From a virus: 37,265 nucleotides of DNA. Where the stretch lies: the IMG/VR virus record IMGVR_UViG_3300010885_006157, positions 1 to 37,265 of that record. One strand, given 5' to 3'. This document shows positions 144 to 35,842 of the stretch, piece after piece (position 1 is the first letter of the stretch; the number at the start of each line of letters is the position of its first letter). Position numbers and translations under genes: made by a program. Below the pieces are notes generated by a model. That model was not told the origin of the DNA and searched no databases. It saw only the letters and a list, made by a program, of their open reading frames with translations.

Positions 144-175
144 TTTGCATATTAAATATATACTTTTTACTTTTG
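144..175 (+). promoter_or_regulatory. Bacteroidota-type promoter, P1
   Basis: TTTG (144-147), a 20-base spacer, then TACTTTTG (168-175): an exact match to the Bacteroidota primary sigma factor pattern TTTG-N19..21-TANNTTTG. Transcription should start near 180-184. No convincing gene follows until 548, so the promoter appears to serve a non-coding RNA or a very long leader. The match is seen directly; activity is inferred. Confidence 0.7.
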
Positions 176-547: not shown

Positions 548-895
548 ATGACAATTAATATACAAACAGAAAAAGCTAAGATTTATATACATTATTTAAA
601 TGTAGTTAATTACTCTTTACCTAAATCTTTAACTGGTAATGAAATTAAAGTATTAGCTACTATGATGTATATAAGGAATATTTACTCACATGTTAAAGAT
701 GTTAATAAGTTAATATTCTTAACTTCTACTAAGAAAAGGATTCAACAATCTTTAAAGTTAAGTGTACCTGTATTTAATAATACTCTTTCTTCTCTCAGAA
801 AAAAGAAGATTTTTATTAGTAAGGATAAATTGTTATTAAAAGAGCCGGTAGTAAATAATGAAATTAATATAAATTTTAAAATAAAAATAAAATGA
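548..895 (+). CDS. Small helix-turn-helix-like hypothetical protein
   Basis: 115 residues, first gene of the late run, 21 bases behind promoter P2. I do not recognise a named family. The middle (about residues 25-100) is basic and helical, and the order of elements (LTGNEIKVLATMMY, then TKKRIQQSLKLSVPVFNNTLSSLRKKKI, then a short strand pair) resembles a winged-helix DNA-binding domain in which SVPVFNNTLSSLRKKK would be the recognition helix. A role in regulating late transcription would suit its promoter-proximal place, but that is inference. Its stop overlaps the next start by 4 bases (ATGA), implying coupled translation. Confidence 0.6.
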   Translation: MTINIQTEKAKIYIHYLNVVNYSLPKSLTGNEIKVLATMMYIRNIYSHVKDVNKLIFLTSTKKRIQQSLKLSVPVFNNTLSSLRKKKIFISKDKLLLKEPVVNNEININFKIKIK

Positions 896-1179
896 ATACA
901 GTAAATTTTGGAACTGCTTTAGAAGCTTTAAAACAAGGAAAAAAAATTGCAAGATTAGGTTGGAATGGAGCTAATATGTTTGCTATCTATTCTCCTGGAT
1001 CAAATAAACCTTTAAAAAATGAAGATTGGTTTTCTCCAGCTATGAGAGAATATACTAAAGATGGTAAAGAGTTAAATGTTAGACCTTCATTGTTATTAAA
1101 AACAGCTCAAGAGGATGTGGCTTATTGGGCCCCTAGTGGATCTGATTGTTTAGCTGAAGATTGGGTTATTTTAGACTAA
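892..1179 (+). CDS. DUF2829 / Tad2-like protein (candidate anti-Thoeris)
   Basis: 95 residues, close to the usual length of the DUF2829 family. It shows the family's N-terminal signature, F-x2-AL-x2-L-x-QGKKIARLGWNG (about residues 6-26), then a strand around MFAIYSPG, the SLLLKTAQEDVAYWAPS segment, and a C-terminal LAEDWVILD ending typical of the family. Tad2 proteins of this family act as sponges that bind the cyclic ADP-ribose-type signal made by Thoeris ThsB and so stop ThsA activation; some bind other cyclic nucleotides. Family membership is convincing. The anti-defence role is inferred, since not every DUF2829 protein has been tested. It overlaps the upstream gene by 4 bases and precedes the next by one base, so it is made with the structural genes. 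Confidence 0.8.
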   Translation: MNTVNFGTALEALKQGKKIARLGWNGANMFAIYSPGSNKPLKNEDWFSPAMREYTKDGKELNVRPSLLLKTAQEDVAYWAPSGSDCLAEDWVILD

Positions 1180-1180
1180 T

Positions 1181-1402
1181 ATGAACAGTAAATACGAAGA
1201 TAAAATACTTACTGAAATTGCTAAAGAGATGAGTTTAAAACCTGAAGTTATTAATTCTGTTATTAAAACTACAAACAGATTTTTAATAAAAGAAATAGGT
1301 GAAGGATCTATAGATGAAATAGATAAATTACAAACAATCTGTTTACCTGTGTTAGGTAAATTTATTCCTAAAAAAAATTTAAAAAAATGGAGCCAGAAAT
1401 AG
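1181..1402 (+). CDS. Small hypothetical protein, possibly HU/IHF-like
   Basis: 73 residues. The order of a helical N-terminus (ILTEIAKEMSLKPEVINSVIKTTNRFLIKEI), a turn, and LQTICLPVLGKFIPKK resembles the first part of HU/IHF-type DNA-binding proteins (two helices, then a strand with LG-x-F), but the C-terminal DNA-binding arm is short or absent, so the link is weak. The gene ends with TAG, the only TAG stop I found among the window's genes, followed two codons later by an in-frame TAA. The next gene starts inside its 3' end. Confidence 0.6.
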   Translation: MNSKYEDKILTEIAKEMSLKPEVINSVIKTTNRFLIKEIGEGSIDEIDKLQTICLPVLGKFIPKKNLKKWSQK

Positions 1403-1779
1403 AAATAATTTTAAATACTATAGTATTTAAAGAAGAGAAGAAAATTATTCAACCTAGTATTGTAAAATTATATCCTACTCACGGTGAATTTTACTTAAAT
1501 TTTGATTATAGCCATTCATTTAAAATTAGTACTGGAGATGATTTAATGGATAAACTTAAACCTCAATATGAAACTAGTGCTAAAAAGATTATTGAAACTT
1601 TATATATAGAAAAAGATAGTATTACTTTGTTTACAGCTTCTGAAGAAGTATCACCTGATGGTACTATAGCTTTATTAACTATAGAAAGTGAATGTACTCA
1701 AATTAATTTATTAGTTAGTACTTACAACGAAGCTTTAGAAATTATTAATTTATTTAGAAAGTGGAAATATGGACATTAA
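1387..1779 (+). CDS. Hypothetical protein
   Basis: 130 residues, acidic, predicted mixed alpha/beta with several amphipathic strands (IVKLYPTHGEFYLNFDYSH, SITLFTASEEVS, IALLTIESECTQINLLVS) and a C-terminal helix. I see no signal peptide, membrane segment or known motif. It overlaps its neighbours by 16 and 11 bases within the tight cluster ahead of the packaging genes, so it is co-expressed with them. Function unknown. Confidence 0.65.
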   Translation: MEPEIEIILNTIVFKEEKKIIQPSIVKLYPTHGEFYLNFDYSHSFKISTGDDLMDKLKPQYETSAKKIIETLYIEKDSITLFTASEEVSPDGTIALLTIESECTQINLLVSTYNEALEIINLFRKWKYGH

Positions 1780-1987
1780 TTTAAAGGAAATAGCTACTGG
1801 TTGGTTTAACTTAGTTACTGGTAAAGAAAGAGAAACTGCAGAATTAAAGTTAAAAACTTGTTTTGAATGTAATTATAACTCAACTCCTAAAAAGATGAAA
1901 GTTACTAGTTACTGCCTTTTGTGTAGTTGTCCTTTAAAAGCTAAAACAAGAAACCCAGATAGTAAATGTCCAGCAAACAAATGGTAA
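1769..1987 (+). CDS. Small zinc-ribbon protein
   Basis: 72 residues. Cysteines lie at C31-x2-C34 and C49-x2-C52-x-C54, with a further C67, in the context CFEC...YCLLCSCPLKAKTRNPDSKCP...KW. Two CxxC knuckles indicate a zinc ribbon. Short proteins of this layout (GW near the start, CGCPL-x-AK-x-R and a terminal KW) recur next to structural genes of Bacteroidota phages, but I know no function for them. A nucleic-acid or protein-binding adaptor is possible. It overlaps the preceding gene by 11 bases. Confidence 0.7.
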   Translation: MDINLKEIATGWFNLVTGKERETAELKLKTCFECNYNSTPKKMKVTSYCLLCSCPLKAKTRNPDSKCPANKW

Positions 1988-2175
1988 ATTTTTTTAAGAG
2001 TTGGTTTAGTAAAACAGAAAGAAGTTTATATACTTTAATATTAGCCACTATAATAGTGTATAAAATAGATGATCATTATCATAATTTATTTACAAATACA
2101 ATGTGTATGATATTCTTAATTATTTGGGCTAGTTTATTCAGTTTTCAAATGTATAATGTAATTAAAAATAGATAA
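1981..2175 (+). CDS. Small membrane protein
   Basis: 64 residues from the ATG at 1981, which overlaps the previous stop by 7 bases; an upstream ATG at 1966 would add five residues with a larger overlap and is less likely. There are two hydrophobic stretches, about residues 16-27 (LYTLILATIIVY) and 41-57 (MCMIFLIIWASLFSFQM), with basic ends. It is probably an inner-membrane protein with one or two spans. I cannot assign a function; a holin-type role is possible but it is far from the lysis genes. Confidence 0.6.
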   Translation: MVNFFKSWFSKTERSLYTLILATIIVYKIDDHYHNLFTNTMCMIFLIIWASLFSFQMYNVIKNR

Positions 2176-2176
2176 T

Positions 2177-2494
2177 ATGACAAATTTAATCCCTTTTACA
2201 CCATTTAATAATGGTATTATTATTGAAAGTCCTAAAATAGAAGATGAGAAAGTACTATCTTCTGGTATAGCTTTACCTGATGGTATGAAAGCTTCAGACT
2301 TTGAACAAAAAGAATTTAAAGGCTACAAAGTTTTAGCTGTAGGTCCAAATTGTACACAAATTAAAGTAGGAGATGTAGTTATGTTTAACTCAAATGCTAC
2401 TCCTGATGGATTTATGTATAATAAAGTATTATATGCTGTATTTAGAGAACATCATGTAGTAGTAATTAATAACAGTGTAGAAGAACTAGCTTAA
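2177..2494 (+). CDS. GroES-like co-chaperonin (Cpn10 fold)
   Basis: 105 residues, near GroES size. The segment GYKVLAVGPNCTQIKVGDVVMF (split here as residues 49-58 and 61-70) matches the Cpn10 core in which a KVLAVG strand is followed by VKVGDKVLF, and the later VLYAVFREHHVVVI matches the GroES ending in which the strand 'y-x-v-v-R-E-x-D-i-x-a' precedes the C-terminus. The mobile loop region (about 20-40) is present but divergent. Phage co-chaperonins such as T4 gp31 replace host GroES so that the capsid protein can fold in GroEL; placement beside packaging and capsid genes fits that. Fold assignment is fairly good; the role is inferred. It meets the next gene through TAATG. Confidence 0.65.
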   Translation: MTNLIPFTPFNNGIIIESPKIEDEKVLSSGIALPDGMKASDFEQKEFKGYKVLAVGPNCTQIKVGDVVMFNSNATPDGFMYNKVLYAVFREHHVVVINNSVEELA

Positions 2495-3036
2495 TGAAAT
2501 TATTTGAGTTAGTTAATCAACAACCTATTATAACAACAGAAGCTTTACTGATTCCTGTATTTAAAAAAATATGGGATTCAGATAAGTCTAAAGATAAAGG
2601 TTTGGCTATTAAAGAATTAGCTTATGTGTATTTATCTACAGATTACAAAAGTGTTTATGCTGCTTTCCCTCAAGATATTAAAATAGTTACTATTATTAAA
2701 GATTTATTTGGAGGTAAATATACTCCTAGTAAAGATGTAGTAGAAGCTATTAAAAAATATGAGGAATTACAAGATACTTTTAACATGAGGTTTTTAAAAT
2801 CAGCTAAATCTGCTGCTGAAAAAACTATGGGTTATTTTGATAGTATAGATTATGAAGAAAGAGACGCTAAAGGAAATTTAGTTTATAAAGTAAAAGAAGT
2901 AACTAGTGCATTAAAAGATTGTGCTGGTATTATAGAAACTTTAGATAAGCTAATTGAAAAAGTAAGTAAGGAACAAAAACTAAAAGAATCTAGAACTAGA
3001 GGTGGAGGAGAAGGATCTTGGTTTGAAAATACATAA
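2494..3036 (+). CDS. Candidate terminase small subunit
   Basis: 180 residues, mostly helical, ending in a charged tail with a glycine-rich GGGEGSW motif. It sits three bases upstream of the terminase large subunit, the usual place for the DNA-recognising small subunit. Residues 105-165 are rich in Lys and Glu and look like a coiled coil that could hold a ring together. I see no clear helix-turn-helix, and small terminase subunits share little sequence, so the call rests on position and character. It may instead be another head-associated protein. Confidence 0.5.
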   Translation: MKLFELVNQQPIITTEALLIPVFKKIWDSDKSKDKGLAIKELAYVYLSTDYKSVYAAFPQDIKIVTIIKDLFGGKYTPSKDVVEAIKKYEELQDTFNMRFLKSAKSAAEKTMGYFDSIDYEERDAKGNLVYKVKEVTSALKDCAGIIETLDKLIEKVSKEQKLKESRTRGGGEGSWFENT

Positions 3037-3039
3037 TAA

Positions 3040-5094
3040 ATGAATATAATAGATATTAATGAATGGACAGCTGCTAGACAACACTTTGATGAATATAAAG
3101 TGTACACCAAGTTATTGCCTGGAACTTCTCAATGGATAAAATTTTGGGAAGAAGAAAGAAAAAGATGTTTATTTGGGTATCATACAGGTAGAGATTTTAT
3201 ACCTGGATATTTTTATGATTATTTAAACTATTCTCCAATCATGAAATCAGAGGAAGTTAAATCAGACCCTAGTGGATTAATATTACCACCAACTGATATT
3301 GTTATTACAGGTAATGTACAAGCTGAAAGGATTGAAGGATTTCCTAATTTTTGGGATGGAGATTATGATTGGTTTCATTATTTAGATGAGTCTGAAAAAA
3401 TGGCTGAACATGCTTTCTTAGGTGGAAGTCGTGGTAAAGGTAAATCATTTAAAGCTGGTAGTATGCTATGCAGAAACTACTTTCATATAGAAAAATCTAA
3501 ATCATTTGCTTTTGCTTATTCTCTAGAATTCTTAACAGGTGATGGTATTATAACTAAAGCCTGGGATATTATGGACTTCAGGGATACATATACTCCTTGG
3601 GGTAAAAGAAGACATTTTAAAAATACAGATTTACATAGAAGATCTTCATATCAAGAAATAGATTCAGAAGGTTTAAAGATTGAAAAAGGTTGGAAGTCTG
3701 AAATCATTGGAGTTACTGTAGGTGATGATATTGATAAATTAAGGGGTAAACGTGGTAAGTTAATTATCTTGGAAGAAGCCGGTAACTTTAGAAAACTAGG
3801 TACTGGTTGGAATATTCTTAGACCTAGTATGGAAGACGGTAAAAGAACTTTTGGTTTAATTTTAGGTATAGGAACTGGAGGTACAACAGGAGCAGCAAGT
3901 GCTGGTTTTGAGGAACTATTTAGAAATCCTAAAGCTTATAGAATTCATGCAGTAAATAATAAATGGGAAGCTGGTAGAGAGAATACAGTTTGTAGTTATT
4001 TTTGGAGTGCAGCAGTTAATTATTCAGGAGCCTATGATGAAGCTACAGGTGAAAGTCATATAGAAACAGCTACTAATGTAATTATGGAAGATAGAAAACT
4101 AGTAGCAACAGGTTCTGACCCACATGCACTAGTTAGAAGAAAAGCTGAATTACCTTTAAATCCATCAGAAATGTTGATGAGAATTACTGGTACTCAATTT
4201 CCTGTTGGATTACTAAAAGAACAAGAAGCTGAAATATTTACTAAAGCACATATATATGCTGATGCTGATTATATTTGTAAATTTGAGTTAAATAGAGAAA
4301 CCCAAAAGTTTGAATTTAAATTAGATTTTGACAGTACACCTATATTAAAGTTTCCTCATTCAGATAACAAAAATATGCCAGGTGCTATAGTTATGTATAA
4401 AAAAAGGATTACAGATGAACCTCCTTTTGGTAGATATGTAGCTGGTATAGATAGTTATGACTTTGATGAAAGTACAACTACCTCATTAGGATCTTGCTAT
4501 GTAGCAGATTCATTTACTGGTGAAATAGTAGCTGAATATACAGGTAGACCAGAAGCTAAAGAGTTTTATGAAAATTGCAGAAGACTATTACTATACTATA
4601 ATGCACAAGTAAATATTGAAAATAGTAATAAAGGTATCTTTGATTATTTTGACAGCAAGAACTGTGGATACTTAATCTGTGAAGAACTAAATATTGTAAG
4701 AGAAGCTACTCAAGATAACGGTAAAAAAACTGGACATAGAAGAAGAGGATTTACACCTAGTCAACCTTTAAATGCTTATGCTAGAGGATTAGTAGCTCAA
4801 TGGTTAAAAGAATCTACTAATGATGAAGAAAAGCCAGAAGAATTAAGAGTACACACATTTAGATGTTTACCTGCAATTCAAGAGATGATTTTATGGAACA
4901 TGGATGGTAACTTTGATAGGGTATCTGCTTTAGGTGCTTTAATGTTATTATATTATGACCGTACTAAATATCCAGTTGAAGAAAGATTTAAAGAAGATCC
5001 TATTGATGAGTTTTTTACTAGACATTTTAATGTAAATAGCTATTTAGAAATCAGAAATAATTCTGGAGAATCAAACCCCTTAATTAATTTTTAA
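3040..5094 (+). CDS. terL: Terminase large subunit (TerL)
   Basis: 684 residues, typical of crAss-like terminases. It is the ATP-driven motor that threads DNA through the portal and cuts concatemers. Residues 128-136, GGSRGKGKS, form the Walker A loop; residues about 240-247, KLIILEEA, are Walker B followed by the catalytic glutamate. The RNase H-like nuclease half begins near residue 467 with YVAGIDSYDFDES, whose first Asp (about 471) is the expected metal ligand; NIENSNKG (about 529-536) supplies a second acidic residue and the C-terminal region around RVSALGALMLLYYD a third. It lies between the candidate small subunit and portal on the same strand. Function is secure. Confidence 0.93.
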   Translation: MNIIDINEWTAARQHFDEYKVYTKLLPGTSQWIKFWEEERKRCLFGYHTGRDFIPGYFYDYLNYSPIMKSEEVKSDPSGLILPPTDIVITGNVQAERIEGFPNFWDGDYDWFHYLDESEKMAEHAFLGGSRGKGKSFKAGSMLCRNYFHIEKSKSFAFAYSLEFLTGDGIITKAWDIMDFRDTYTPWGKRRHFKNTDLHRRSSYQEIDSEGLKIEKGWKSEIIGVTVGDDIDKLRGKRGKLIILEEAGNFRKLGTGWNILRPSMEDGKRTFGLILGIGTGGTTGAASAGFEELFRNPKAYRIHAVNNKWEAGRENTVCSYFWSAAVNYSGAYDEATGESHIETATNVIMEDRKLVATGSDPHALVRRKAELPLNPSEMLMRITGTQFPVGLLKEQEAEIFTKAHIYADADYICKFELNRETQKFEFKLDFDSTPILKFPHSDNKNMPGAIVMYKKRITDEPPFGRYVAGIDSYDFDESTTTSLGSCYVADSFTGEIVAEYTGRPEAKEFYENCRRLLLYYNAQVNIENSNKGIFDYFDSKNCGYLICEELNIVREATQDNGKKTGHRRRGFTPSQPLNAYARGLVAQWLKESTNDEEKPEELRVHTFRCLPAIQEMILWNMDGNFDRVSALGALMLLYYDRTKYPVEERFKEDPIDEFFTRHFNVNSYLEIRNNSGESNPLINF

Positions 5095-5095
5095 A

Positions 5096-5103
5096 TAAAT
5101 TTG
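5096..5103 (+). promoter_or_regulatory. Possible -7 box before the portal gene
   Basis: TAAATTTG matches TANNTTTG exactly and continues with TAAG as in other late promoters here, 20 bases before the portal start. No TTTG is found 19-21 bases upstream, so this is at best a weak or activator-dependent promoter, or chance in AT-rich DNA. Confidence 0.25.
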
Positions 5104-5123
5104 TAAGTTAATACCATAAATAT

Positions 5124-7661
5124 ATGAATTTTACAGCGAGCTTAAAACCAATGCCTAAACAAAAATTACCTGATTCTCAGAAAACTGAAGAATGGGCTAA
5201 AAATTGTATAGATTCTGCAGAAGGTTTAGTACTAATGTATAATGATAACATTAGAATGAACAGGTTAAATAAAGAAACTAATTATAACCTTGTTAATGGT
5301 GTTCTTAATGTTAATGATATAGAAAAAATACAAAATCCTAATACAATCAGAAATGCTACCTTTCCAGCAACTCCTAAAAATTATCCATTAGTAAATGCTT
5401 ACTTAAAGTCTTTACTTGGAGAAGAGTTAAAAAGAAAGTTAGATTATCATGTGGCAGTTGTTAACCCAGATGCAATATCATCTAAACAACAACAAAAACT
5501 AGAAATTATAAAAGCTCAAGTTGAAGAAGCATTTACTCAATCTCTACAGGCTACACCTGAACAGATGGAAGATCCTCAATTTCAGCAACAAATGCAAAAA
5601 CAACTTCAAGATAAACTTGACAGTCTTTTAGAATTTAGAGAAACAAGAGAGTTAGCAGCTACTTATATCCTTGAATATTTTACTAGAAAATTAGAATTAA
5701 GAGAGATGTTTGCTAAAGGTTTTGAAGATGCATTAATTTCTGGTGAAGAAATTTACTGTGTTGATGAATTTAATGGAGAGCCTACAGTAAGAAGATGTAA
5801 TCCATTAATGACTTACTTTTTAACTAATCCACATTCTAATAGGATTGAAGATTCAGATGTAGTAGTAGAAGAACAGTATATACCATTATCTGAAGTAGTA
5901 GATAGATACCACACAGAGTTATTACCTAAAGATATTGATTACTTAGAAACTAGAAGTGGGTATAACTCATCTACTGGTCAACAGTTAATTAATTATAGTC
6001 CGCCAGTAACTTATTTAGATTACACAGATACAAACTTAACAAGTAACTTAAATACCTCACTTAACAGAGGTTGGGATAGTAATAACAATATCCGTGTTAT
6101 GAGGATTGTATGGATGTCTAAAAGAAAGATTAATGTCCTTTACTACATAGATGAGAATGGTGATCAACAAAAGACTTATGTAGATGAAACATACAAAGCA
6201 GATAAAACTAAAGGTGAATATTTGGAGCCTTTATGGATTAATGAATGGTGGGAAGGTACAAAAATTGCTAATGCTATTTATGTAAAAATTAAACCTAGAA
6301 GTATCCAATTTACAGAGATGAATAATCCTTCTATTTGCCAAAGTGGTTATGTAGGATCTGTTTATAATACTAACTCTAGTAGAGTACAATCATTTGTTGA
6401 TATAGTAAAACCTTATCAATATTTGTTTATTTTACTAATGTATAGAACTGAATTAGGCTTTCTAAAAAGTCATGGTAAAATTGGAGTAGTAGATAAAGCT
6501 CTTATACCAGATGGTATGGATGTTGATAAATGGATGTATTATGCAACTATGACAGGTTGGGCTGTACAAGATTCATTTAAAGAAGGTAAAAAAGGAGCAG
6601 CTACCGGTAAACTAGCAGGTAATTTATCAGGACAAGCTAGAGAGATGGATTTAGAACAAGGTAGATATATTGAACAACATATATCTATGATGCAATATAT
6701 TGAAAGTCAAGTAGATAAAGTAACTGGTATAACTCCTCAAAGAAGGGGTCAAATAGCAGCAGATGCTGGATTAGGAACTACACAAGAAGCTCAAGCAGCT
6801 TCAGCTACTATTACTGAATGGTATTTTAAAGCTCATGATTCTATTAAACTTAGAGTATTAAAAGCTTTATTAGAAACTAGTAAATATTGTTTAAAAACTG
6901 GTAATACTGTATTTCAGTATTTTATGGATGATATGTCTATGAATATTTTTAGTGTAGAACCTGAAGAATTTGTAGAAGCTGATTATGGTATTATGATCAG
7001 TGATGGTACTAATGATATAGAAACTTTAGCAAGTTTAAAACGTGCTATGGAGATGGCTATACAAACTGGTAAAACAGATGTTAATCAATTATTGACTATT
7101 ACTTCTAATGCTAGTATGAGCTCTATTAGACATAAGTTAAAACAAGAAACTAGAAAAGGTCAAGAGGCTGCTCAACAACAATTTGAAGCTGAACAACAAG
7201 CTAAACAAAAAGAGATTGAAGCTAAAATGCAAATAGAGCAATCTAAATTAGATCTTGAATATGAGAAGTTAAATAGAGAAGATATTAATAAACAGTTAGA
7301 TAGAGAGAATAAAATTGAACTTGAAACTCTTAGAGCTTATGCTATAGATGAAGGTACTAATATACCTGAAATAGATAATACAGCAGAACTGGCTTTAAAA
7401 CAATCTGACATTAATCTTAAACGAATGACAGAAGCTAATAAAATAGCTTTACAAGATAGACATAAAATAATGGATAAAATGTTGAAAGAAAAAGAGTTAT
7501 CTATGAAAAAAGAAATAGAAGATAAAAAGATCAGAGCTATCGAGGTACAAAATCATTCTCAAGAGTTAATGCAAAATAAACAAATAGCATTAGAAGAGAA
7601 AAAATTAAAAGCACAAGAAAAAATTGAACGTATTAAATTAAGAGCTAAACCTAAGAAATAA
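5124..7661 (+). CDS. Portal protein
   Basis: 845 residues, the size expected for crAss-like portals. Twelve copies would form the head vertex channel through which DNA enters and leaves. Support: position right after TerL and before scaffold and capsid genes; N-terminal alpha/beta part (EKMYNDNI-like helices, then YFLTNPHSNRIEDSDVVVEEQYIP); a middle region around residues 400-560 (SFVDIVKPYQYLFILLMYRTELGF ... GITPQRRGQIAADAGLGTTQEA) typical of the portal stem and crown of this group; and a long charged Gln/Glu/Lys-rich coiled coil from about residue 680 to the end. Its stop overlaps the next start (TAATG). Confidence 0.88.
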   Translation: MNFTASLKPMPKQKLPDSQKTEEWAKNCIDSAEGLVLMYNDNIRMNRLNKETNYNLVNGVLNVNDIEKIQNPNTIRNATFPATPKNYPLVNAYLKSLLGEELKRKLDYHVAVVNPDAISSKQQQKLEIIKAQVEEAFTQSLQATPEQMEDPQFQQQMQKQLQDKLDSLLEFRETRELAATYILEYFTRKLELREMFAKGFEDALISGEEIYCVDEFNGEPTVRRCNPLMTYFLTNPHSNRIEDSDVVVEEQYIPLSEVVDRYHTELLPKDIDYLETRSGYNSSTGQQLINYSPPVTYLDYTDTNLTSNLNTSLNRGWDSNNNIRVMRIVWMSKRKINVLYYIDENGDQQKTYVDETYKADKTKGEYLEPLWINEWWEGTKIANAIYVKIKPRSIQFTEMNNPSICQSGYVGSVYNTNSSRVQSFVDIVKPYQYLFILLMYRTELGFLKSHGKIGVVDKALIPDGMDVDKWMYYATMTGWAVQDSFKEGKKGAATGKLAGNLSGQAREMDLEQGRYIEQHISMMQYIESQVDKVTGITPQRRGQIAADAGLGTTQEAQAASATITEWYFKAHDSIKLRVLKALLETSKYCLKTGNTVFQYFMDDMSMNIFSVEPEEFVEADYGIMISDGTNDIETLASLKRAMEMAIQTGKTDVNQLLTITSNASMSSIRHKLKQETRKGQEAAQQQFEAEQQAKQKEIEAKMQIEQSKLDLEYEKLNREDINKQLDRENKIELETLRAYAIDEGTNIPEIDNTAELALKQSDINLKRMTEANKIALQDRHKIMDKMLKEKELSMKKEIEDKKIRAIEVQNHSQELMQNKQIALEEKKLKAQEKIERIKLRAKPKK

Positions 7662-9154: not shown

Positions 9155-10660
9155 ATGTCAAAAATTTCAAATTTACAAATTAGGGACGCCCAAAGTTTTG
9201 GTGGCTTGGTAACTGAAAATAACTTAGGTTATTTAGGTATGATCCAACCTCAAAAAGCGAGCAATTTAATTTCCCAACTATTTACCATGACTCATGGTAT
9301 GGATTTGGATACTTATCTAAATCAATTTCCAGCTTTGTATCTAGATGATGATACCCCATTTCAATGGAAACTTCAAGGTGCTTCTGAAAAGAATGTTCCT
9401 TTAATTGAAGCTCGTTTAACAGCTACAGGATCTGCTGTATCAGCAACTGATAAAGTAGGTGTAGGAGTTTCACGTTTTTACTTGGTATTCCCAGAGCAAT
9501 ATTTTTATGACACTGAATTAATCGTTGGTGAAAAAAATGAATTGTATCCTATTCAAATTAAATCTGATCCAGTTTCTGATGGAACTAATTGGGTTTATGA
9601 GTGTGAACTTTTAACAGGTGATACTGCATTATTTATCCCATTTGAAGAAATTCAAGCTGGTAAGCGTTTCTCTAAAGAATGGAGTCCAGTAGCTCGTACA
9701 ATGTCAAACAAAGGTGGAGGTATGAATTATGTAACTCCAATGACAATGCAAAATTCATTTACTTATATGAGATTGGAAGATACTCGTCCAGGTAACATGA
9801 TTGATAAGCCATTGGCATTTGACTTTATGGGTACAGATGGTAAAACATATACTACTTGGATGCAATATGCTGATTTTGAGATGGAAGCTCGTTTCCGTCA
9901 AATGAAAAACAGATATTATATGTTTGCTACTCCAAACAAGACAGAGCAAAATACTTATCTTAATAAAGATACTTCAGGATTTACAATTGAACAAGGAGCT
10001 GGTATCCGTTCTCAAATGAATCCTTCTAATATTGAGTACTTTAACAAACTTGATATTGACTGGTTAACTTACACATTGTTAGGTCTATCAGTAAACAAAT
10101 TACCAATGGACAAACGTAAGTTTATCTTGAGAACTGGTGAATATGGTATGGTTGAGTTTTCTAAAGCTCTTGAAAACAAAGCTTATGGTTATGTAAGAGT
10201 TGTTCCTTCAGGTTCAAATGATCAAGCTATTTCTAGAGTTGTAGATAACAACCGTATTTCAATCTCTGGTAACAAGCTTACTTTCAAAGGTCAGTTCTTA
10301 GAATACATTGGTCCAAATGGTATTGAGATTACAGTTATGCACGAACCTCTTTATGATAATGTAGTTCGTAATAAAGTATTACATCCAAATGGTGGTCCTG
10401 CTGAGTCTTACAGATATGACATCTTAGACGTAGGTACTTCTAATGGTGAGCCTAATATCCGTAAGGTATTTAAGAAAGGTATGGAAGATATTACCAGATT
10501 TATCCCTGGTTTGCGTGATCCTTATCAATTAGGTAATAAAGCTCCTCAATATGCAGCTAATTCAGTTGATGCTTATGCTGTACATAGAATGAGTATTTGT
10601 GGTGTTATGATCAAAAATCCTACATCATGTTTACAACTTATTCCAAATATTTTGGCGTAA
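9155..10660 (+). CDS. Major capsid protein (HK97 fold)
   Basis: 501 residues, matching crAss-like major capsid proteins in length. Position after portal and scaffold, lack of signal or membrane segments, and segments such as FSKEWSPVARTMSNKGG, FMGTDGKTYTTWMQYADFEMEARFRQMKNRYYM (split over residues about 225-257) and GNKLTFKGQFLEYIGPNGIEI fit the HK97-fold capsid protein of this group. It forms the icosahedral shell. Codon use is distinct: of 22 arginines I counted 13 CGT, 8 AGA and 1 AGG, whereas neighbours use nearly all AGA, a sign of selection for very high expression. Its last codons hold the -33 box of the next promoter. Confidence 0.87.
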   Translation: MSKISNLQIRDAQSFGGLVTENNLGYLGMIQPQKASNLISQLFTMTHGMDLDTYLNQFPALYLDDDTPFQWKLQGASEKNVPLIEARLTATGSAVSATDKVGVGVSRFYLVFPEQYFYDTELIVGEKNELYPIQIKSDPVSDGTNWVYECELLTGDTALFIPFEEIQAGKRFSKEWSPVARTMSNKGGGMNYVTPMTMQNSFTYMRLEDTRPGNMIDKPLAFDFMGTDGKTYTTWMQYADFEMEARFRQMKNRYYMFATPNKTEQNTYLNKDTSGFTIEQGAGIRSQMNPSNIEYFNKLDIDWLTYTLLGLSVNKLPMDKRKFILRTGEYGMVEFSKALENKAYGYVRVVPSGSNDQAISRVVDNNRISISGNKLTFKGQFLEYIGPNGIEITVMHEPLYDNVVRNKVLHPNGGPAESYRYDILDVGTSNGEPNIRKVFKKGMEDITRFIPGLRDPYQLGNKAPQYAANSVDAYAVHRMSICGVMIKNPTSCLQLIPNILA

Positions 10661-10681
10661 TAAAATAAAGTTATATATTTG
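10651..10681 (+). promoter_or_regulatory. Bacteroidota-type promoter, P4
   Basis: TTTG (10651-10654, inside the last codons of the capsid gene), a 19-base spacer, then TATATTTG (10674-10681): an exact match in both boxes. The start site near 10686-10690 falls within a perfect hairpin and serves the gene at 10727 and those behind it. Confidence 0.7.
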
Positions 10682-11554: not shown

Positions 11555-12238
11555 ATGACAAAAACAATTAATTCTCTTTCTGGTATTTATAAAATTTTAA
11601 ATAAAGAGAATAATTATATTTATATAGGGAGTTCTAAAAATATGTCTAGAAGATGGTCTATACATACTAGAGAACTTAAAAAAAATCTACATAAAAATAA
11701 TTATCTTCAGAAAGCTTTTAATAAGTACGGGAAAGAGAATTTTATTTTTGAAATAGTTGAAGTAGTAAGCGATTTTAATAATTTAATTATTAGAGAACAA
11801 TTTTATATAGATATTTTAAAACCAAAATATAATATTAGAAAAATAGCTGAAAGTAATTTAGGATTATCACATTCAAAAGAAACTAAAGAAAAAATATCTA
11901 ATAAATTAATTGGGAGATGTTTAACCGAAGAACATAAATTAAATGTAAGTATTTCTAAAAAAGATAAACCACAAACTGTTGAAGCTATTATGAATAGACT
12001 CTCAGCTAGAGAAGGATACAAACATTCAGAAGAAACTAAGAAAAAAATTGGATTATCTAATAAAGGTAAAAAACATATAAATCGTAAATTATCTGATAGC
12101 CATAAAGAAAAATTAAGTTTGGTGCATAAAAATAAAACATTATCTTTGGACACCAGAAAAAAAATTTCTGAAAGTAAAAAAGGTAAACCTTGGACTATAA
12201 ACAGGATTAATGCTCAAAAAATAAAAACTAATGACTAA
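11555..12238 (+). CDS. GIY-YIG homing endonuclease with NUMOD3 repeats
   Basis: 227 residues. The catalytic domain starts with G10-I-Y12 and Y23-I-G25, then R32/R33 in the following helix, LQKAFNKYGKENFIFEIVE, and the metal-binding Glu in REQFYIDIL (about residue 89), so the active site looks complete. From about residue 105, repeated segments of the form LSHSKETKEKISNKLIG / KHSEETKKKIGLSNKGKK / LSLDTRKKISESKKGK are NUMOD3 DNA-binding modules. It cuts specific DNA sites and spreads its own gene. It lies freestanding between two head-tail genes, 4 bases after one and overlapping the next by 8, apparently without breaking either. Confidence 0.9.
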   Translation: MTKTINSLSGIYKILNKENNYIYIGSSKNMSRRWSIHTRELKKNLHKNNYLQKAFNKYGKENFIFEIVEVVSDFNNLIIREQFYIDILKPKYNIRKIAESNLGLSHSKETKEKISNKLIGRCLTEEHKLNVSISKKDKPQTVEAIMNRLSAREGYKHSEETKKKIGLSNKGKKHINRKLSDSHKEKLSLVHKNKTLSLDTRKKISESKKGKPWTINRINAQKIKTND

Positions 12239-35810: not shown

Positions 35811-35842
35811 TTTGTTACTTTAAATTAATTAATATATATTTG
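35811..35842 (+). promoter_or_regulatory. Bacteroidota-type promoter, P5
   Basis: TTTG (35811-35814), a 20-base spacer, then TATATTTG (35835-35842): an exact match. The -33 TTTG is the loop of a perfect 6-bp inverted repeat, AAGTAA (35805-35810) and TTACTT (35815-35820). The start site would be within about 9 bases of the box, so the ATG at 35851 would have almost no leader. Confidence 0.7.

Follow-up and report, generated by a model that had tools for sequence, protein, structure and literature searches.

A Tad2-family gene, candidate exchangeable cargo ahead of the packaging genes in a divergent crAss-like phage

A small gene at positions 892-1179 of a viral contig raises two questions: what kind of protein it encodes, and why a presumed counter-defence factor should be found next to the packaging genes of a crAss-like phage. 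The contig, an IMG/VR virus record of 37,265 bases, is referred to here as the window. A first-pass annotation had described the product as a candidate Tad2-like protein directed against Thoeris and its late position as unusual for an anti-defence gene. The left end of the window is organized as follows:

144..175, + strand: host-type (Bacteroidota sigma factor) promoter, exact match to TTTG-N20-TACTTTTG, before the rightward operon
548..895, + strand: first gene of the operon, 115 aa, PHROG profile phrog_16323, left border of the cargo slot
892..1179, + strand: Tad2-like protein, 95 aa (PF11195, PDB sequence match, AF2 model, Foldseek, dN/dS)
1181..1402, + strand: 73-aa gene that bounds the slot on the right, of a family conserved in close relatives
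1387..2175, + strand: three small genes of 130, 72 and 69 aa (ORF list, profile searches)
2177..2494, + strand: co-chaperonin GroES (Cpn10; PF00166, E 3e-5; phrog_3188, E 8e-9)
2494..3036, + strand: terS-position gene, 180 aa (phrog_16390), a small terminase by position only
3040..5094, + strand: large terminase TerL (phrog_6681, E 3.9e-116)
5124..7661, + strand: portal protein (phrog_6547, E 7.6e-128)

Judged by its sequence, the window belongs to a divergent crAss-like phage. TerL and the portal protein have strong PHROG matches, and TerL, the portal protein and the major capsid protein (MCP) are homologous to, and collinear with, those of the Crassvirales. TerL and MCP are 35-40% identical to their counterparts in crAss-like phages, including phi14:2 and Azobacteroides phage ProJPt-Bp1, which points to a divergent member of the group. 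The crAss-like assignment made earlier is borne out by these matches. The gut origin proposed with it is not, as the two proteins reach this same low range of identity with both gut and marine phages. A gene for a GIY-YIG/NUMOD3 homing endonuclease lies amid the structural genes (11555-12238).

The start of the Tad2-like gene overlaps the stop of gene 548-895 by 4 nucleotides (ATGA), in agreement with the translational coupling noted before, and the ATG of gene 1181-1402 follows its own stop after 1 nucleotide. The earlier placement inside the virion operon is correct in that the gene is coupled to, and belongs to, the same operon. More exactly, it is the second gene and keeps company with small accessory genes ahead of terS, not with the structural genes. 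The gene order is repeated in two related records, L002, with an identical Tad2, and L003, with a Tad2 87% identical. Two further differences were seen in L003. Its operon contains a PhoH-like ATPase gene (1003-1662; PF02562, E 1.8e-49) that the window lacks, a further gain or loss at this place, and its TerL (3528-6749) is broken by a long in-frame, intein-like insertion that is missing from the TerL of the window.

The 95-residue protein matches the Tad2-like profile PF11195 (formerly DUF2829) with an E-value of 1.1e-21 and a score of 77.5 bits, the cut-off being 25. The match covers positions 2-73 of the 73 in the profile and is far past chance, and the family signature recognized in the first pass is thereby confirmed. 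The best PDB sequence match is ModTad2 (E 4e-22), followed at lower similarity by SptTad2 and HgmTad2. An AlphaFold2 (AF2) model of the monomer has a pLDDT of 95.2, and a Foldseek search with it identified the Tad2 fold: all 24 PDB matches with E < 0.001 are Tad2/AcrIIA7 chains, ranked with 9eib (ModTad2 with His-ADPR) and 8v3e at the top, then SptTad2, HgmTad2/AcrIIA7 and SPO1 Tad2.

In SPO1 Tad2 the ligand pocket includes the beta1-beta2 loop; the segments that line the Tad2 pocket are this loop, the beta4-alpha3 loop and alpha3, and the cyclic-dinucleotide site is formed by the beta2-beta5 insertion (PMC12043709). Three segments of the window protein correspond to these elements or lie between them:

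952..981, + strand: residues 21-30 (RLGWNGANMF), the strongly conserved beta1-beta2 segment, with R21, W24, N25 and G26 invariant in 43 homologues
997..1077, + strand: residues 36-62, a variable beta2-beta3 insertion, in the alignment longer than that of ModTad2 and shorter than those of SptTad2 and HgmTad2
1126..1164, + strand: residues 79-91 (WAPSGSDCLAEDW), the conserved C-terminal part of the predicted pocket, with a PSxSD motif as in ModTad2 and with W79, S82, D85, D90 and W91 invariant in the 43 homologues

All 10 residues that are invariant across these homologues are kept, and the segments lining the predicted pocket, whose role is taken from PMC12043709, are conserved. Between the window and L003, dS for the Tad2 gene is 0.69 and dN is 0.09. 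Of the seven operon genes compared, Tad2 has the lowest resulting dN/dS, about 0.13, and the first 400 codons of terL come out slightly higher. Purifying selection on the gene is strong and maintains it for its protein, and the product is a real, selected member of the Tad2 family. Almost certainly, as far as sequence can tell, it is a protein of known type, a putative sponge that would soak up a bacterial alarm molecule.

The surroundings of the gene vary among relatives. In terL-bearing relatives that reach far enough upstream, a homologue of gene 548-895 usually occurs shortly before the genes in the 1181 and terS positions; it precedes the terS-position gene in L010-L014, L016-L020, L033 and L034. 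In L017, the gene at the position of 1181-1402 matches the HU/IHF DNA-binding family (PF00216, E 1.2e-5). The slot between the two borders is occupied by Tad2 in the window and L003, by an unrelated 130-aa protein in L010 and L011, and by a 65-72-aa protein in L013, L014 and L017, and is empty in L012, L020 and L033. The 130-aa protein belongs to a recurring family of 130-150 aa (YYTPTIEEFHVGFE...KNKSELIKLL; L010 384-779, L033 2672-3082, L031 7842-8297), which is found elsewhere in further relatives and is itself candidate cargo; its L010 member has no Pfam match.

Among 23 related records, many of which are fragments, only L002 and L029 carry a Tad2 anywhere. In L029, whose TerL is 38% identical to that of the window, Tad2 ends 3 nucleotides ahead of the terS-position gene. 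It is a member of another Tad2 subfamily, and a joint clade with the window clade is rejected (p 0.0185). In L111, which is more distant, a Tad2 similar to that of L029 lies about 2 kb ahead of a terS-like gene. Tad2 has therefore probably entered this region of crAss-like genomes at least twice. A single acquisition ancestral to the crAss-like carriers was rejected on the same test for the window clade and L029, and in most crAss-like relatives, many of them represented by fragments, no Tad2 was seen.

The closest characterized relative, ModTad2 of a Myroides odoratus prophage (PDB 9eib, 8v3e), shares with the window protein the family, the fold, a full-length alignment at about 47-54% identity depending on the method, the PSxSD motif, a Bacteroidota phage as carrier and a GroES gene about 1 kb downstream. 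It differs in that its insertion after beta2 is about 7 residues shorter, in its location in a prophage rather than in a crAss-like packaging operon, and in that binding of His-ADPR is demonstrated for ModTad2 and predicted for the window protein. SPO1 Tad2 (gp34.65; PDB 8sme, 8smf, 8smg) has the same family, fold and GWNG and AEDW motifs, but is about 35% identical, carries SQTD, binds gcADPR and comes from a Bacillus phage. SptTad2 and HgmTad2/AcrIIA7 (PDB 8wjd, 8kbi-8kbm) share the family, the fold and an insertion after beta2; they are about 30% identical, and their insertion is longer and linked to cyclic-dinucleotide binding, with a WLASQTD motif. The Tad2-like P015 of the lytic Sinorhizobium phage AP-20-A is ModTad2-like and has 97 aa (PMC13299392), similar in length to the window protein, but the phage and host are unrelated and the gene lies outside a crAss-like operon.

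In the window, L003, L004 and the ModTad2 prophage of Myroides odoratus, a GroES gene follows Tad2 at no more than about 2.2 kb, joined in L004 by GroEL (chaperonin genes near Tad2: window 2177-2494; L115 9089-9373; L004 1561-3397). At most other Tad2 loci GroES was not seen nearby, and the chaperonin is therefore perhaps shared cargo of Bacteroidota phages.

The ligand can be predicted from these comparisons. MoTad2 is reported to inhibit type II Thoeris through His-ADPR binding, and SPO1 Tad2 to inhibit type I through gcADPR binding (PMC13299392). In the alignment, the pocket segment reads PSGSD in the window protein, of the PSxSD form found in ModTad2, and SQTD in the SPO1, Spt and Hgm proteins. 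In a reduced tree the window clade falls on the side of ModTad2 (86/76), and a test of a joint clade with ModTad2 gives no rejection (p 0.39). Because ModTad2 is closer in sequence and fold, gcADPR was dropped as the default ligand, and a sponge for type II Thoeris appears likelier than one for gcADPR. His-ADPR is the likeliest ligand on this evidence, with about an even chance of being the right one. The weak deep forks of the Tad2 tree, a larger tree in which the window clade does not join ModTad2, the long stem of that clade and the insertion exceeding that of ModTad2 weigh against it.

The same evidence bears on two other assignments of the ligand. The protein may instead bind gcADPR and counteract type I Thoeris as SPO1 Tad2 does, with or without a cyclic-dinucleotide site like that of HgmTad2 and SptTad2. 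It belongs to the same family, SptTad2 and HgmTad2 match it in sequence and fold, the insertion at residues 36-62 is longer than in ModTad2, and a larger tree, built on few columns and with weak deep forks, does not group the window clade with ModTad2 and puts it weakly on the SPO1/Spt/Hgm side. Nevertheless, the similarity to these proteins is lower than to ModTad2, the pocket has PSGSD in place of SQTD and the insertion falls short of the length seen in SptTad2 and HgmTad2, and a gcADPR sponge is considered unlikely. A ligand new to Tad2 proteins, some other nucleotide-type signal of a different TIR or cyclic-nucleotide system, is suggested by the window clade itself (window, L003, L004), which is well supported (100/98), sits on a long stem and contains no characterized member; it is a rather improbable solution given that every segment thought to form the Tad2 pocket is conserved.

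The late position does not set the gene apart from other members of the family. In a survey of Tad2 neighbourhoods based on a limited marker search, so that the counts are lower bounds, homologues of terL, portal or MCP genes occurred within 5 kb of Tad2 at at least 29 of 87 viral and at least 20 of 80 cellular loci, nearly all on the same strand. Tad2 lies between the minor head protein and the scaffold in phage SpaA1, and between the terL region and MCP in Vibrio phage 1.205.O. Late genes are thus close neighbours of Tad2 at no fewer than a quarter to a third of the sampled loci, and the idea that late placement is an anomaly had to be given up. The repeated occurrence beside head genes might alternatively reflect a structural role of the fold, the protein being a virion or assembly component or being packaged and injected. 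Packaging, one of the options of the first pass, gained no support, and a structural role appears very improbable, since Gundel_1 and IME_EC2 have Tad2 in accessory or replication regions, the gene is missing from most of the crAss-like relatives searched, and the members characterized so far are soluble sponges.

When the gene is expressed can be judged from the promoter region. The host-type TTTG/TANNTTTG promoter ahead of the operon, which follows the Bacteroidota-type consensus, recurs in relatives: matches stand 47-57 nucleotides ahead of the first-gene homologue in L011, L017, L018, L020 and L034, while that of L033 is at -276; none was found before the first-gene homologue of L012. Matches with the -7 element number 3 in the intergenic stretches of the window, against 0.03 expected under a first-order Markov null. 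In addition to the one at 144-175, two exact host-type promoter matches with this element are intergenic:

10651-10681: before gene 10727
35811-35842: before gene 35851

E. coli-type sigma-70 promoters were no more numerous than in shuffled sequences. L002 extends further upstream and has small genes on the opposite strand there, including DnaA C-terminal-like and glucosaminidase-like ones, so that positions 1-547 of the window represent a divergent intergenic region. Between the promoter and the first gene lies an untranslated leader of about 370 bases (176-547); over 183-547 it had no Rfam match and a folding z-score of -1.06, and a known or strongly structured RNA was discarded. A different non-coding motif, roughly CAGGGGTCTTTGA...AGATGGTCC.CAC, is present upstream of the promoter in L013, L014, L016-L019 and L034. 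Host RNA polymerase is believed to transcribe the late genes of crAss-like phages, among them terL (PMC10136315). Together with the host-type promoter, this makes late transcription of 892-1179 likely and a fair inference.

Based on these findings, the gene is probably best explained as interchangeable cargo near the start of the late (packaging and head) operon of a crAss-like phage, encoding a functional Tad2-family sponge that most likely acts against type II Thoeris. Host RNA polymerase, starting at the Bacteroidota-type promoter about 400 nucleotides upstream of the first gene, would read Tad2 together with terS, terL and portal, and ribosomes would reach the Tad2 gene from the first gene by ATGA coupling. 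The protein would probably form the Tad2 tetramer. The tetramer would hold an ADP-ribose-derived alarm molecule made by a host TIR protein, most likely the His-ADPR of type II Thoeris, and the membrane effector ThsA would stay untriggered while virions are built. Late production would make sense because ThsB1, a Thoeris sensor that has been studied, is reported to recognize the major head protein (PMC12043709), which is made late. A system triggered by the capsid would need no early sponge. To our knowledge, the head-protein trigger has been shown for type I Thoeris and not for type II. A broader proposal, distinctly unlikely as a whole, would make the front of the crAss-like late operon a counter-defence slot in which sponges that differ in specificity are swapped. 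The window clade would then be a Tad2 subfamily with a specificity of its own (His-ADPR together with another signal, or else a novel TIR-derived one), and its timing would match the phase in which the capsid triggers Thoeris.

Thoeris of both types is present but uncommon in the Bacteroidota sampled. Of 297 genomes, 3 contain the type II effector domain ThsA_Macro, a rarity that counts against the preferred reading. In one of the three, L200, a ThsB-TIR gene lies next to the effector gene, and the two match PADLOC models for Thoeris; a complete type II pair is thus seen in one Bacteroidota genome, which speaks for that reading. The type I STALD domain scored above the cut-off in 2 of the 297.

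A literature search, the reach of which stopped short of the main Tad2 papers, found no report of Tad2 in a crAss-like phage. What is new is Tad2 as swappable crAss-like cargo, probably connected with type II Thoeris, a modest and testable advance. If the sponge works, crAss-like phages would meet Thoeris-type immunity in their Bacteroidota hosts, and the likely type (II, His-ADPR) would be open to a defined binding assay. More counter-defence genes could then be sought in the variable slot that the two conserved genes enclose. The case would also speak against looking for such genes in early regions alone, as a late sponge may suffice against a capsid-triggered system.
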